Under the pieces are notes generated by a model. That model was not told the DNA's origin. It saw nothing but the letters and a program-made list of their open reading frames with translations, and did no database searches. Source: a virus. From it: a DNA stretch of 26,809 bases. Both the position numbers and the translations under genes were made by a program. The stretch covers positions 1 through 26,809 of the IMG/VR virus record IMGVR_UViG_3300022833_000373, one strand, 5' to 3'. Positions within the stretch are counted from its first letter, which is position 1. The number at the start of each line of letters is the position of its first letter. Below are positions 9,739 to 24,812 of this stretch, piece by piece.

Positions 9739-10302
9739 ATGGCATTAAAGGAACTAGTTCCCGGAGAGCTCTGGGAGTATGAGAACTTTATAACTGATTC
9801 AGAGCTTGGGCTCTTGCTCGATAAGGCTAGGTTCGCCAGAGAAGAAGATTGGTTTGCCGAAGACTTACCTGACTATGATAAGCATCATGCTGGAAAAACT
9901 TTTGAGTTCCAAGATACTCCTGGGGGAAGCTACCTGTCAAAGGCAATTGACCTTAGAGTTGCTGCCCTGTTCAAAGACGTAGCATACATGAATGAAATAG
10001 GTAGTATATGCAGAGCTACATCCCATCTAGAACCTGTAGGGATGCACAGAGATAATGCTGACCAAGACATAGTCGGGGAACATAGAAACACTCATGTGAA
10101 GTATGGAGTCCTTATGTACTTAAACGATGACTATATTGGGGGCGAGATATGCTATCCAGAGTTAGGAATAGAGTACAAACCTAAACCAGGTGTCCTGTTG
10201 ATCCATCACGCTGGCAACTTACATGGTGTCAACCCAGTGACAGAAGGGGTCCGCTTCTCTATGACATCCTTTGTCTATGGCCTAGACGCCCTTATTGTTT
10301 AA
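9739..10302 (+). CDS. 2OG-Fe(II) oxygenase (prolyl-4-hydroxylase-like), copy A
   Basis: 187 residues, a single double-stranded beta-helix domain. Iron ligands are H103-x-D105 (MHRD) and H162 (NLHGV); the 2-oxoglutarate-binding Arg is R172 (EGVRFSM). Between them is the sub-family strand 'YGVLMYLNDDYIGGEICYPELGIEYKPKPG', shared with the copies at 10282, 10842, 13619 and 14962. Enzymes of this fold hydroxylate proteins, nucleic acids or small molecules; here the substrate is unknown. It starts 4 bases after the preceding gene's stop with no own ribosome site, so coupling is likely. Its last 21 bases overlap the end of the convergent oxygenase gene. Confidence 0.85.
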   Translation: MALKELVPGELWEYENFITDSELGLLLDKARFAREEDWFAEDLPDYDKHHAGKTFEFQDTPGGSYLSKAIDLRVAALFKDVAYMNEIGSICRATSHLEPVGMHRDNADQDIVGEHRNTHVKYGVLMYLNDDYIGGEICYPELGIEYKPKPGVLLIHHAGNLHGVNPVTEGVRFSMTSFVYGLDALIV

Positions 10303-10845
10303 TGTCTCGTGGAAGACAATAATTACGTTGACGCGGACGCCCTTAGTCACATAGTCAACCCCGTGGATAGTGTCATGGCCAGTAAAGAGAACTAGAGTTC
10401 CGGCCTTGGGATGTAAGCTAATTTTTAAGTCTGGGAAGTGTAGTTCCCCACCTTCGTAATCGTCGGTGAGAAAAAGCGCGGCTATGTATGGTTTCTGATC
10501 TGCAGCGTCGCCGTTAGAGTCTGGCTCCCAGTCGGCATGACCTGCCAGCCAAGCCCCTTCGCGCATCATGTTCCCATAACATCTATGGAGAGTGAACTCT
10601 CCCTTGATCTCGTAATTGTCCCTAAAAACTGAGTGAGCATGCTTCACTGCAAGTTTTATCTTGCCTTCGGCATCCCAATCGTAGGTTATAGCATTATCTT
10701 CTAAAACTTCGGGGCCGAACAGGCTGAAAGTGCTATACATCTCACGGTCGTCATCTTGCGGAGACAACTGCATAGCTGCCGCTGCTCGGCTGGCCTCCTC
10801 CTGTGTGAGAAAGTCTTCAAAGATGAGGTAGTCTTTCGAGATCAT
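10282..10845 (-). CDS. 2OG-Fe(II) oxygenase (prolyl-4-hydroxylase-like), copy B
   Basis: 187 residues. Ligands H103-x-D105 (GHADW), H161 (TIHGV) and Arg171 (GVRVNV). The strand 'YIAALFLTDDYEGGELHFPDLKISLHPKAGTLVLF' is the family hallmark. Its 'HRCYGNMMREGAWLAGHAD' segment matches 'RLYGNIMDTGAENYAHDD' in copy C, so B and C are close paralogues. It overlaps the upstream gene C by 4 bases (ATGA), a two-gene minus-strand operon driven from about 11405. The 3' end overlaps copy A, convergent and with no terminator between. Intact, so probably active; substrate unknown. Confidence 0.85.
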   Translation of the reverse strand: MISKDYLIFEDFLTQEEASRAAAAMQLSPQDDDREMYSTFSLFGPEVLEDNAITYDWDAEGKIKLAVKHAHSVFRDNYEIKGEFTLHRCYGNMMREGAWLAGHADWEPDSNGDAADQKPYIAALFLTDDYEGGELHFPDLKISLHPKAGTLVLFTGHDTIHGVDYVTKGVRVNVIIVFHETLNNKGV

Positions 10846-11393
10846 GTTGCTAAAGGGATGTGGTCGCGGAAAAAGAATATAAAGTTATAACGTTTCCCCG
10901 AAAGAACCTTACGAACTCCATGGAGATTGGCCTCGTTACCTCTAAACATTATCAAGTCGCCTTGCTCTAGCTTTATATCTATGTTGTGATGCTGGAAGTA
11001 CAGTTCTCCACCTTCATAGTCGCTGTTTAGCATTAAAATACAAGAATAGTGCAGCTCCACCTCGGGTTTACCGTCGTAGTGGTCCCCGTCGTCGTCGTGA
11101 GCGTAATTTTCCGCGCCAGTGTCCATAATGTTCCCGTAAAGGCGCTTCATGCCAAAAGTGTACTTCATGTCGTAATTGTCCTGAAAAAACGCTTTAACCT
11201 TAGTAAGCATCAATCTCACTGGTTGTAGGAAAGGTAGCTCCTCATTCTCCAAGTCTGTTAGGGGGACTCTTTGTAGTCGATATCCCGGTCTGAATTGGTC
11301 TTTCATCGCGTACTCTTCAATCCATTGTGAGTAAGTCTCGCACTGCGAGGGCGTGAGCGCGTTTTTAATGAGCTTGTATGGAAGGTCTGTCAT
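10842..11393 (-). CDS. 2OG-Fe(II) oxygenase (prolyl-4-hydroxylase-like), copy C
   Basis: 183 residues. Ligands H99-x-D101 (AHDD), H158 (NLHGV) and Arg168 (GKRYNF); the family strand 'SCILMLNSDYEGGELYFQHHNIDIKLEQGDLIMF' is complete. It leads a minus-strand pair with copy B, with an ATGA overlap. The start is a leaderless ATG: TAGAAT (11405-11400) lies exactly six bases before it and there is no ribosome site. Divergent from the carbamoyltransferase, 36 bases apart, so the two may be switched on together. Confidence 0.85.
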   Translation of the reverse strand: MTDLPYKLIKNALTPSQCETYSQWIEEYAMKDQFRPGYRLQRVPLTDLENEELPFLQPVRLMLTKVKAFFQDNYDMKYTFGMKRLYGNIMDTGAENYAHDDDGDHYDGKPEVELHYSCILMLNSDYEGGELYFQHHNIDIKLEQGDLIMFRGNEANLHGVRKVLSGKRYNFIFFFRDHIPLAT

Positions 11394-23059: not shown

Positions 23060-23073
23060 GTTAGAATTCTATC
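23060..23073. promoter_or_regulatory. Bidirectional palindromic -10 element (TAGAATTCTA)
   Basis: The palindrome TAGAATTCTA at 23062-23071 reads TAGAAT on each strand. On plus, six bases separate it from the GTG at 23074. On minus, six bases separate it from the ATG at 23059. The two start codons are only 14 bases apart, leaving no room for any leader or for independent -10 boxes. Confidence 0.7.
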
Positions 23074-23601
23074 GTGTATAAGCCTGAGCTAATTAAGAAC
23101 CTCTTCAGTCAAGAAGACATTGATAGATTGAGGGCAGAGATCCTAGATGGATCTGAGCTGAAGCGTGACGACTACGATGAAGTCTGTAATCGGTCAGTCA
23201 TAGAGCACCATCTCTTAGACTCTTACTTTAGCCGTAAAGCTCTAGATGATGTAAGAAGAATCTACGAGGATGAATCCATAGAGCCCACCATATGCATCTA
23301 CTCTAAATATGATAGCCCCGACTCTTTTCTGCCTGAACACGTGGACAGGAACGCCTGCGAGTTCAACATCTCTTATGTAGTATCTCAGCAGGAGCCTTGG
23401 CCTATAATCATAAACGGCACTAAGTACTATCTAGAAGTGGGAGACGCCATTACTTATCATGGCACCAACTCTCGACACAGTAGGGGAGAGCTTCAAGAAA
23501 CTAGCAATACTGAAGTAGAGATGTTAATATTCCACTACGTCTCCGGCTCCCATTGGTTCTTTAACCACTGCGACGACTTCTACCCGGACAGTGAGCTGTA
23601 A
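23074..23601 (+). CDS. 2OG-Fe(II) oxygenase, second subfamily (I)
   Basis: 175 residues from a leaderless GTG. Ligands H89-x-D91 (EHVDRNACEF) and H135 (SRHSRG). It shares 'NAC-x-(F/Y)-x-I-(S/D)-Y-V-V-S ... WP-(L/I)-I' and 'FHYVSGSHWFF' with the 22302 product. The Arg usually before the last strand is Glu/Thr here (NTEVEMLIFH), so 2-oxoglutarate may be held by another basic residue. It overlaps the next gene by one base (TAATG). Substrate unknown. Confidence 0.72.
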   Translation: MYKPELIKNLFSQEDIDRLRAEILDGSELKRDDYDEVCNRSVIEHHLLDSYFSRKALDDVRRIYEDESIEPTICIYSKYDSPDSFLPEHVDRNACEFNISYVVSQQEPWPIIINGTKYYLEVGDAITYHGTNSRHSRGELQETSNTEVEMLIFHYVSGSHWFFNHCDDFYPDSEL

Positions 23602-24812
23602 TGCAAATAGCAATGCTTGGGTTTGGTAAAGTCTGCAGAAGTGTCACCAACAAGATAAAAGAGTTCCCAGAGTTTGGGAGAGGTGGCAAAGTTCAGATCT
23701 ATGCTATTCACACTAAGCGTCACTCATTAAGTTATGGACCTGACCTTGCCGTTGAGATTCCCGACCCACATGATGATGGGCTTAGGACTTACAAAGATGG
23801 GTACCAAGCTACAGATAATTACTACACATCCGTCACTAACTATGAGGACTGGATATTGGGTGAGCTAGCAAAGGGTGCAATAGACACCGTAATCAACTGC
23901 ATCCCGTACAGTGACGACTCTCTTCAGATGTTACACAGGTTCTTGGACGCAGCTCCCGAGCACACGAAGTTCTACCTGATAGGTAAGCCGGAACAGAGTG
24001 AGCAGGAACTTTTAATATCTGAGGTTGCTGAGCTGAAGAGCTTGCGTATAGCTTTTGTGGAAGATGAAACTAATAGCGTGGACGGGATCTCCGAAGTACT
24101 AGTAAATGAGCTGCGAAAAGATTTGAATGGTGGGCTGCCCTGGGAGAAAGTAATCCGTAGTGAAAAGTTCTGGGAAGACGCAGAACAAAAGTACGAAGCC
24201 GCACGGCACCAGATGGCTGCGCTACACGTCATGAAAAGAACGGAAGCTGTAGCAGAACGACTAAGTGAGATGCCCGCCGGCAGAACTTCGAATGGAGCTT
24301 GTAACATATCTAGTCCTATAACTGAAGCAGACCTAGAGTCTATACAGAGATTTGTAGTGAACGGTGAGGGATCCTTTGAGCGCAATGAGTGGTATGACAC
24401 CGATAGGAAGTGTCTTGTCGTGGAGCATGAGATGCTTAATTGGTTTTTTGGCCCCTTCTGCTTTGAGGATGCGGCCACGCAAGAGTTTCTGGAGCCTCTG
24501 CTGAGAACCACTAGTGCTAGGTACTACAAGTATGACTCTGCGGATAGCTATGTTGAAGCGCACGTTGAAGCGCCTTCGTGTGGTTACGTTATAGATTACG
24601 TCATTTCTGGGGACATGCCTTGGCATCTCAATGTTTCAGGTGCGCCTCCCCAGGGTGTAGGAGTGCTAGAGGGAGTAGCTTACAAGTCTGGGCTAACAAG
24701 TAGAGCCCCTCTTGGGGTTGCGACAAGTCCTGTAGAATTGCTGGTAATACATTTTGCTAAAACAGTAAACGGGAAAGTACCTAACTGTACGTGCTATCAG
24801 GAGGATAAATAA
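23601..24812 (+). CDS. Fusion: Rossmann-like domain + degenerate 2OG-Fe domain (J)
   Basis: 403 residues. Residues 1-170 begin 'MQIAMLGFGKVCRSVTNKI' (G-x-G-x-x-x-x-x-V) with 'AIDTVINCIPYSDDSL', like an NAD(P)-binding or saccharopine-dehydrogenase-type domain. About 170-235 is a charged helical linker. Residues 240-395 align along their length with the 23074 product ('KYDSADSYVEAHVEAPSCGYVIDYVISGDMPW ... SRAPLG ... VELLVIHFAK'). There, H-x-D has become H321-x-E323 and the distal His has become Ala369, so normal iron binding is unlikely. A fusion of these folds is new to me. It may be a regulatory or binding partner of the active neighbour. Confidence 0.65.
   Translation: MQIAMLGFGKVCRSVTNKIKEFPEFGRGGKVQIYAIHTKRHSLSYGPDLAVEIPDPHDDGLRTYKDGYQATDNYYTSVTNYEDWILGELAKGAIDTVINCIPYSDDSLQMLHRFLDAAPEHTKFYLIGKPEQSEQELLISEVAELKSLRIAFVEDETNSVDGISEVLVNELRKDLNGGLPWEKVIRSEKFWEDAEQKYEAARHQMAALHVMKRTEAVAERLSEMPAGRTSNGACNISSPITEADLESIQRFVVNGEGSFERNEWYDTDRKCLVVEHEMLNWFFGPFCFEDAATQEFLEPLLRTTSARYYKYDSADSYVEAHVEAPSCGYVIDYVISGDMPWHLNVSGAPPQGVGVLEGVAYKSGLTSRAPLGVATSPVELLVIHFAKTVNGKVPNCTCYQEDK

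Follow-up and report, generated by a model that had tools for sequence, protein, structure and literature searches.

Among the unexplained genes of aquatic phages, 2OG-Fe(II) oxygenases are some of the most common. In animals, collagen prolyl 4-hydroxylase (P4H) uses the Y position of Gly-X-Y repeats, and P3H1 acts on the X position. In the Skp1 pathway of Dictyostelium and Toxoplasma a prolyl hydroxylase acts first and a GlcNAc-transferase of glycosyltransferase family 60 (GT60) second; GT60 is a hydroxyproline-GlcNAc-transferase family, and its protist members act on the hydroxyproline of Skp1. The viral use of prolyl 4-hydroxylase "remains cryptic" (PMC9301287). Cyanophages had at most five annotated oxygenases in a comparison from 2010 (PMC3037559), and S-MS29 has eight (PMC10436341). 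A DNA modification with a 5hmC carbamoyltransferase, with a dCMP hydroxymethylase of the thymidylate synthase type (PF00303) as partner, has also been described (PMC8670742).

The DNA analysed here, called the window, is a viral stretch of 26,809 nucleotides. Its virus has actinobacteria as the given host, and the phages treated here are called actinobacterial-type. The window oxygenases resemble the P4H, P3H and PKHD enzymes and vCPH, the collagen prolyl 4-hydroxylase of PBCV-1 (PDB 5C5T), in the fold and in the HxD..H motif, and they share the viral origin with vCPH. In contrast to vCPH, to which the identity is just 17%, there are many diverged copies per genome in this phage type. Furthermore, the phage collagen has Pro at X of Gly-X-Y, and the phage activity is putative.

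Oxygenase relatives in the window

An earlier note on this DNA had claimed about ten oxygenase-like genes between positions 9739 and 24812, i.e., five intact copies with H-x-D...H and Arg, a second subfamily of two with H-x-D...H, and three diverged relatives. Profiles, PHROGs and phmmer confirmed these assignments, that of 21841 only weakly. Ten relatives were found, every ORF being present at the coordinates given here: family A, which is prolyl-hydroxylase-like, has six members and a diverged seventh, family B has two, and a further family B domain is fused to a dehydrogenase-like protein.

9739-10302, plus strand: family A 2OG-Fe(II) oxygenase, intact HxD..H..R (phrog_61, motif)
10282-10845, minus strand: family A 2OG-Fe(II) oxygenase, intact (PF13640, motif)
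10842-11393, minus strand: intact 2OG-Fe(II) oxygenase of family A, its model closest to vCPH in fold (PF13640, fold)
13619-14236, plus strand: family A 2OG-Fe(II) oxygenase, intact (PF13640, motif)
14342-14965, plus strand: family A pseudoenzyme, YxD..W..R (five-seed profile, motif)
14962-15570, minus strand: family A 2OG-Fe(II) oxygenase, intact (PF13640, motif)
21841-22302, plus strand: relative of family A, diverged and lacking iron ligands (phmmer 1e-4)
22302-22832, plus strand: modelled family B 2OG-Fe(II) oxygenase with an intact HxD..H (phrog_2954, fold)
23074-23601, plus strand: family B 2OG-Fe(II) oxygenase, intact (phrog_2954, motif)
23601-24812, plus strand: NAD(P)-binding dehydrogenase-like N-terminus and degenerate family B domain (family B profile)

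The H-x-D...H iron triad with the Arg or Lys for 2OG is intact in seven of the ten. HDHR is kept in 9739, 10282, 10842, 13619 and 14962, and HxD...H in the family B pair 22302 and 23074. The motif is lost in the three others: 14342 has Y-x-D...W...R, the 23601 domain has H-x-E and its second His is gone, and 21841 has no iron ligands. Four proteins were above the curated Pfam cut-off of PF13640 (10282, 10842 and 14962 on the minus strand, 13619 on the plus strand). For 9739 (plus strand) Pfam gave only a sub-threshold Tet_JBP match, and phrog_61 (2OG-Fe(II) oxygenase) matched with 3.9e-13. A profile built on the five seeds detected 14342 (plus strand) with 7e-33, and the link of 21841 to intact family A members was weak (phmmer 1e-4 to 3e-4). 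The matches of 22302 and 23074 to phrog_2954, which is labelled "ferrochelatase", had values of 7e-10 and 3e-17, respectively, and the C-terminal half of 23601 matched a family B profile, the seed of which did not contain 23601, with 6.8e-17. Judged from these comparisons, the family relationships are far above chance level, 21841 being the weakest.

Structure prediction was applied to 10842 (family A, pLDDT 95.3) and 22302 (family B, pLDDT 91.5). Both AlphaFold models lie inside the double-stranded beta-helix fold, and both match 2OG oxygenases with a probability of 1.00. The nearest fold of 10842 was vCPH (TM 0.75, 1.9e-11), and the model of 22302 matched PKHD, TlxI, vCPH and PHD2. The top PDB profile matches were procollagen prolyl 3-hydroxylase 1 (5.5e-16), PKHD and the P4H of B. 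anthracis. Procollagen prolyl hydroxylases are the closest relatives, with P3H1 and P4H as best or near-best in the profile search and vCPH as best fold. Family B had no credible PDB relatives by sequence. A true ferrochelatase is ruled out for family B by the fold of 22302, and, on the basis of the model, 22302 and 23074 really are a second 2OG-oxygenase family.

Four related phages retain the 14342 pseudoenzyme, and in three of these an intact copy lies right next to it in the opposite orientation. The operon of a 21841-type, a family B, a dehydrogenase-like and a Rossmann-like gene is conserved in several phages.

Arrays in the tail-fibre gene blocks of related phages

Relatives were gathered with ThyX, an anchor that does not depend on the oxygenases, because the family A alignment was too divergent for a search of viral contigs. 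In all 11 array-bearing relatives the tail-fibre gene block holds an array of 5-11 family A genes, which are co-directional in nearly all of them. Collagen genes flank the array on one side in 10 of the 10 relatives whose contig reaches that far, and a PPYFPP-rich gene lies on the other side in six relatives, including the one called G002. Rotation tests of the adjacency in single genomes gave P values of 0.06-0.23 only, and the 11 genomes are related.

Up to 18 family A genes were counted in one relative, and a syntenic relative of 154 kb has 24 oxygenases overall, compared to at most five annotated ones in the cyanophages of PMC3037559 and eight in S-MS29 (PMC10436341). The earlier note had proposed that equal numbers in related phages, with a known unrelated role, would speak against its interpretation. 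Such numbers do occur (up to 18 family A genes and 24 oxygenases in total in one relative; up to five in cyanophages, PMC3037559), but an unrelated role is not known for them.

The left edge of the window also carries fibre genes:

3-341, minus strand: first part of a tail-fibre gene with collagen-like Gly-X-Y repeats (GPTGADS...), running off the window; candidate substrate type
341-703, minus strand: tail-fibre-module gene, L-shaped tail fibre assembly-like (phrog_1084 6e-21, phrog_3304 4e-6)

The PHROG matches of the first are tail fibres (phrog_6320, 4e-10; phrog_819), and the homologue of the second in G002 has the collagen genes on one side and the oxygenase array on the other. Synteny predicts an array to the left of the collagen gene of the window. 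The contigs found end short of this region: a near-identical contig adds just 312 bases, and a third relative is rearranged.

In the tree, the window-side oxygenases are split from the array oxygenases (5 label changes versus 51 in shuffles), and, because of this separate lineage, the window enzymes could act on something else. The genes form an accessory island, which is absent from a close relative with a core that is 83-97% identical.

Counterparts exist in the cultured T4-like cyanophages S-CAM8, S-SSM5 and S-MS29, where four to five oxygenases, a family B "ferrochelatase" and a carbamoyltransferase adjoin tail-fibre genes. As in the window, families A and B occur together with a (Nol-like) carbamoyltransferase, but hosts and virion type differ. 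In ACG-2014g the oxygenases also adjoin tail-fibre genes; collagen repeats are absent there, at the one cyanophage fibre locus that was checked.

Candidate substrates and partner enzymes

Further island genes encode predicted transferases and associated proteins:

6207-7190, plus strand: glycosyltransferase family 61, GT61 (PF04577 1.5e-12)
7190-7615, plus strand: sugar/alcohol-phosphate cytidylyltransferase-like (PF01467 2.3e-17; g3p_cytidyltrns 1e-19, under the curated cut-off)
11430-12863, plus strand: NodU/TobZ-type O-carbamoyltransferase (PF02543 7e-40, PF16861 2e-51)
18715-19695, plus strand: SGNH-like, multi-copy island family (DUF6473 0.02, under the cut-off; SGNH label by eye)
24812-25447, plus strand: small Rossmann-like protein, whose place downstream of the 23601-type protein is conserved

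Both Carbam_trans domains of 11430, N and C, are above the cut-off, and an O-carbamoyltransferase function is predicted. A carbamoyltransferase occurs in 9 of 17 oxygenase-bearing contigs versus 0 of 23 without oxygenases (Fisher, 9e-5). GT60 (PF11397) was detected in 7 of 50 surveyed contigs (G002, with genes 18561 and 152072, and six others; E to 2e-33), and PDB relatives of it were not found. The likeness to the Skp1 pathway is that prolyl-hydroxylase-like enzymes adjoin GT60 in relatives of the window phage; in contrast, the window and a near-identical contig of 55 kb (G001) are without GT60, and the phage substrate is only a candidate. An Rfam search of the window gave no matches.

The collagen repeats have Pro at X (GPT) and hardly ever at Y. 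Lys is nearly absent from them; lysyl hydroxylation is therefore unlikely, and a lysyl hydroxylase (LH3-like) was rejected. The Pro content at X did not differ between array-bearing and array-free phages (P 0.34). In the array-bearing phages Thr at Y (P 0.0017) and GPT (P 0.02) are elevated, in statistics that ignore relatedness. Collagen genes also occur in contigs without oxygenases, and no enrichment was seen (12 of 17 bearing contigs versus 23 of 33, P=1). Their presence was thus rejected as a predictor of oxygenases; adjacency alone was observed.

The earlier note had suggested a modification system for virion proteins, DNA or host molecules, in which perhaps each enzyme would have a target of its own; three of the ten are without the iron site. 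Virion proteins are the best-supported of these three targets, based on the collagen gene at the edge, the 11 arrays in fibre operons, the cyanophage gene sets and the vCPH fold; DNA became less likely. We give an even chance to the explanation that the window holds an accessory virion-decoration island, in which oxygenases hydroxylate tail-fibre proteins and transferases then cap them. The oxygenases would be protein hydroxylases of the prolyl-hydroxylase type, and Gly-Pro-Thr collagen-like and Pro-rich stalks, perhaps also further fibre proteins, would receive the hydroxyls. Tail fibres of this kind serve the virus in host finding. GT61 and the NodU-type carbamoyltransferase (in relatives also GT60 and GT8) could cap the hydroxyls directly or modify attached sugars. 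The enzymes may have multiplied and diverged in step with fast-evolving fibres, thereby tuning stability, host recognition or escape. We infer fibre proline, or any other residue, as substrate, as well as the capping and the biological role. More tentatively, a diversified set of prolyl hydroxylases, GT60 and O-carbamoyltransferases might together build hydroxylated, glycosylated collagen-like tail fibres in a phage, which, if true, would parallel the maturation of collagen in animals and Skp1 hydroxyproline glycosylation. The gene context offers tail-fibre proteins as a concrete candidate substrate and suggests a pathway order, hydroxylation followed by glycosylation or carbamoylation, common to actinobacterial-type phages and cyanophages.

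Alternative substrates

Small-molecule tailoring has a limited chance of being the correct explanation. The window-side oxygenases would act on free sugars or metabolites, which are later attached to the virion or the host surface. They form their own lineage amid glycan genes, in an island with GT61, cytidylyltransferase, SGNH-like, dehydrogenase-like and carbamoyltransferase genes; small molecules are substrates of carbamoyltransferases like 11430 (TobZ, novobiocin), one of the nearest folds is HygX, whose substrate is the aminoglycoside hygromycin B, and the operon with the 21841-type gene is kept in several phages. However, peptidyl-prolyl hydroxylases top both the sequence and the fold matches, and the cyanophage counterparts adjoin fibre genes. 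DNA hypermodification, against which the same gene set near cyanophage tail-fibre genes also speaks, we regard as unlikely. Under that reading TET/JBP-like oxygenases would hydroxylate a methylated base, the carbamoyltransferase would cap the hydroxymethyl group and ThyX would be the nucleotide-side partner. The carbamoyltransferase and ThyX do neighbour the oxygenases, and the former co-occurs with them across contigs; its Pfam domains are shared with the 5hmC carbamoyltransferase system (PMC8670742), and TET/JBP belong to the same oxygenase superfamily. Yet ThyX is also found in relatives without oxygenases, the partner PF00303 in 0 of 12 relatives, though records may be incomplete, and the cytosine methylase PF00145 in just one of 12. 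The weak Tet_JBP matches (0.0002, 0.0017 and 0.02) reached 14.6-21.1 bits, below the curated Pfam cut-off of 34.9. Searched by profile, window-side proteins matched a Naegleria Tet-like dioxygenase at 5.6e-8, but P3H1, PKHD and P4H outscored it, and TET was absent among the best 50 fold matches and from the profile search of the array.

It is very unlikely that the enzymes are host-directed, modifying a host protein or surface molecule (e.g., EF-Tu, as the Pseudomonas P4H) or modulating 2-oxoglutarate signalling. One of the fold matches is the P4H of Pseudomonas putida, the structure of which was solved with EF-Tu, and a role around 2-oxoglutarate was proposed for cyanophage oxygenases (PMC3037559). 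However, 7-24 diverged enzymes are unnecessary for the 2-oxoglutarate level or a single host target, and the placement in fibre operons is left unexplained.

Oxygenases of the module fall under two misleading names in PHROG, "ferrochelatase" for phrog_2954 and "DNA endonuclease" for phrog_2297. A carbamoyltransferase of S-SCSM2R is annotated as "2OG-Fe(II) oxygenase"; a possible fusion was rejected, and the annotation is probably a label error, because the carbamoyltransferase match covers nearly the whole ORF.

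Oxygenase relatives and islands of the window

All ten relatives of 2OG-Fe(II) oxygenases that the earlier note had placed in the window were found at their positions. They represent two families, prolyl-hydroxylase-like enzymes (family A) and a second oxygenase family (family B; phrog_2954, labelled 'ferrochelatase').

Oxygenase relatives of the window (position, strand where assigned, description)
9739, +, family A oxygenase, profile matches
10282, -, family A oxygenase, profile matches
10842, -, family A oxygenase, profile matches
13619, +, family A oxygenase, profile matches
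14342-14965, +, degenerate family A copy, profile match
14962, -, family A oxygenase, profile matches
21841, strongly diverged family A relative
22302, +, family B oxygenase
23074, +, family B oxygenase
23601, degenerate family B domain fused to a dehydrogenase-like protein

HxD...H and Arg were retained in 7/10, in agreement with the proposed division into seven motif-bearing copies and three diverged relatives. One protein of each family (10842 and 22302) was modelled with high confidence (pLDDT 95.3 for A and 91.5 for B). The best structural neighbour of the family A model was the viral collagen prolyl hydroxylase (vCPH) of PBCV-1 (TM 0.75), and the family B model matched PKHD, TlxI, vCPH and PHD2. 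By sequence profile, family A was nearest to procollagen prolyl 3-hydroxylase 1, PKHD and Bacillus P4H. At 14342 the two iron His are replaced by Tyr and Trp. This type of pseudoenzyme is common to four phages (window 14342-14965, L039:2340-3002, L041:3012-3656 and L060:4203-4859), adjoins, in three of them (window, L039, L060), an intact copy encoded on the other strand, and is possibly a regulatory or heterodimer partner.

The claimed interleaving was also observed: a NodU/TobZ-type carbamoyltransferase, ThyX and Rossmann-like genes lie among the oxygenases or immediately upstream, together with GT61, a cytidylyltransferase, a serine recombinase and an SGNH-like protein (18715-19695), whose family is multi-copy within these islands (relatives in loci L040, L121, L039 and L060). 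A collagen-like gene of the minus strand starts at the left edge; it has Gly-Pro-Thr/Gly-Ala-Asp repeats, matches tail-fibre families, and is preceded by an L-shaped-tail-fibre-assembly-like gene. In G051, a close relative whose core is 83-97% identical, each island's flanks are nearly adjacent, 450 and 417 bp apart versus 6.2 and 7.4 kb, and a search for family A or B genes found none; thus, both islands are accessory. An actinobacterial host is indicated by two further genes of the 26.8 kb IMG/VR virus record, a WhiB gene and a ribonucleotide reductase gene with about 77% identity to those of Gordonia and Mycobacterium phages. The island genes at 7654-9057 and 20309-21823 encode a subtilase and an M6-like metalloprotease, the latter with a signal-peptide-like N-terminus as judged by eye; both proteases are apparently secreted. 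At 6093-6169 lies a tRNA-like gene whose predicted anticodon has four bases (ttta); an Rfam search gave nothing there at the gathering threshold.

Arrays in the tail-fibre block of relatives

Relatives were gathered via ThyX, independently of the oxygenases (80 loci), and the scan covered 50 contigs, each 30 kb or longer. PF13640 was detected in 17/50, with a maximum of 15 per contig. The syntenic 154 kb relative G002 has 18 family A genes (motif intact in 18/18), 3 family B genes and 3 JmjC/cupin-type candidates (JmjC_2 match of 4.5e-11 for one), i.e., 24 oxygenase candidates.

The array sits in the tail-fibre gene block in 11/11 array-bearing relatives, in one of which (G027) the contig terminates within the array and the collagen side lies outside it. 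Collagen-like genes are followed in most cases by a small gene, which in G002 is tail-fibre-assembly-like, then by 5-11 family A genes, family B and GT60 in some, and a Pro-rich PPYFPP gene in six relatives. A gene pair within the G002 array (149062-150550; L025:14870-15610 and L025:15591-16358), has DUF6065 (PF19541) as one member; most other arrays contain an unassigned gene pair at the corresponding position. Long PPYFPPFFPP repeats were seen in fibre-type genes adjoining arrays (G002 1-801 and 135975-136808; L110, L111, L112, L115, L117), and these proteins are a possible Pro-rich hydroxylation substrate.

GT60 is best known for hydroxyproline glycosylation of Skp1 in protists. GT60 (PF11397) was present in 7/50 contigs, with four copies in G002 (18561-19535, 20848-21897, 81286-82269, 152072-153079); the phage collection had matches only in the jumbo phages XacN1, CM1 and RAS14, and in XacN1 it adjoins a carbamoyltransferase. 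Carbamoyltransferase was found in 9/17 oxygenase-bearing contigs versus 0/23 others (Fisher 9e-5); this and the other counts for the relatives are non-independent, because the genomes are related and incomplete. Rotation tests within single genomes were weak (P 0.06-0.23), and collagen presence per se was not enriched in oxygenase-bearing contigs.

Cyanophage clusters and known systems

An independent replicate comes from the cultured T4-like cyanophages S-CAM8, S-SSM5 and S-MS29. Each has a cluster of four to five 2OG oxygenases, of which one is annotated 'DNA endonuclease', with the family B 'ferrochelatase' and a carbamoyltransferase; the cluster lies beside tail-fibre genes, and in S-CAM8 between two such genes. 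S-CAM8 proteins were matched by the family A profile (3e-25) and the family B profile (2e-12) of this analysis, and by profile and motif phrog_2954 'ferrochelatase' and phrog_2297 'DNA endonuclease' (SXCG_00046 and SXCG_00041) are 2OG-Fe(II) oxygenases. In ACG-2014g oxygenases immediately precede tail-fibre genes, in which no collagen repeats were found. S-CAM1 has a carbamoyltransferase with no annotated oxygenases close by, and thus the set is not invariable.

Viral collagen prolyl hydroxylase is already known, as are phage fibres with collagen (PMC3368898) and a variable actinophage island with collagen-like genes (PMC10202952); collagen fibres and viral P4H are both mentioned in PMC9301287, where the use of viral P4H is called cryptic. 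Phages with several 2OG oxygenases are known too, with up to 5 per cyanophage in PMC3037559 and eight in S-MS29 (PMC10436341), versus up to 24 candidates per genome here. The open-access papers searched yielded no description of arrays within a fibre operon, of an association with GT60 and carbamoyltransferase, or of such a number per genome, which is not proof of novelty.

Candidate substrates of the oxygenases

The data establish families, motifs, folds and gene order, whereas substrate, order of steps and role are inferred. In the most likely scheme, residues of fibre proteins would be hydroxylated by the oxygenases and then capped by transferases. DNA hypermodification is weakened as an alternative: TET scores were under the cut-off, TET was missing from the top fold matches, and PF00303 and PF00145 occurred in 0/12 and 1/12 relatives, respectively. 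The tree labels 'array' and 'other' required 5 changes versus 51 in shuffles, and the window family A proteins form separate lineages; therefore, the collagen-adjacent arrays are no direct proof of the substrate of the window enzymes, and for this reason metabolite or sugar tailoring stays a rival to fibre hydroxylation. A stronger bridge than the arrays is offered by the clusters of the cyanophages, in which A, B and carbamoyltransferase genes adjoin fibre genes.

Prolyl 3-hydroxylase 1 acts on Pro at X. In the collagen repeats Pro occupies X (0.18-0.49 of the triplets in array-bearing phages) but almost never Y, a position where Thr is common; there is hardly any Lys. The X-position Pro is only suggestive of a fit with this enzyme, the best sequence match. 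The presumed 2OG anchor is Lys in 43/77 array members and Arg in most others. In five array-free phages (L133-L136 and L138, from G020, G026, G033, G038 and G048) the collagen-like fibres have almost no Pro left at X, where Thr mostly stands instead (GTT/GTQ), which looks as though a different fibre stabilisation were in use.
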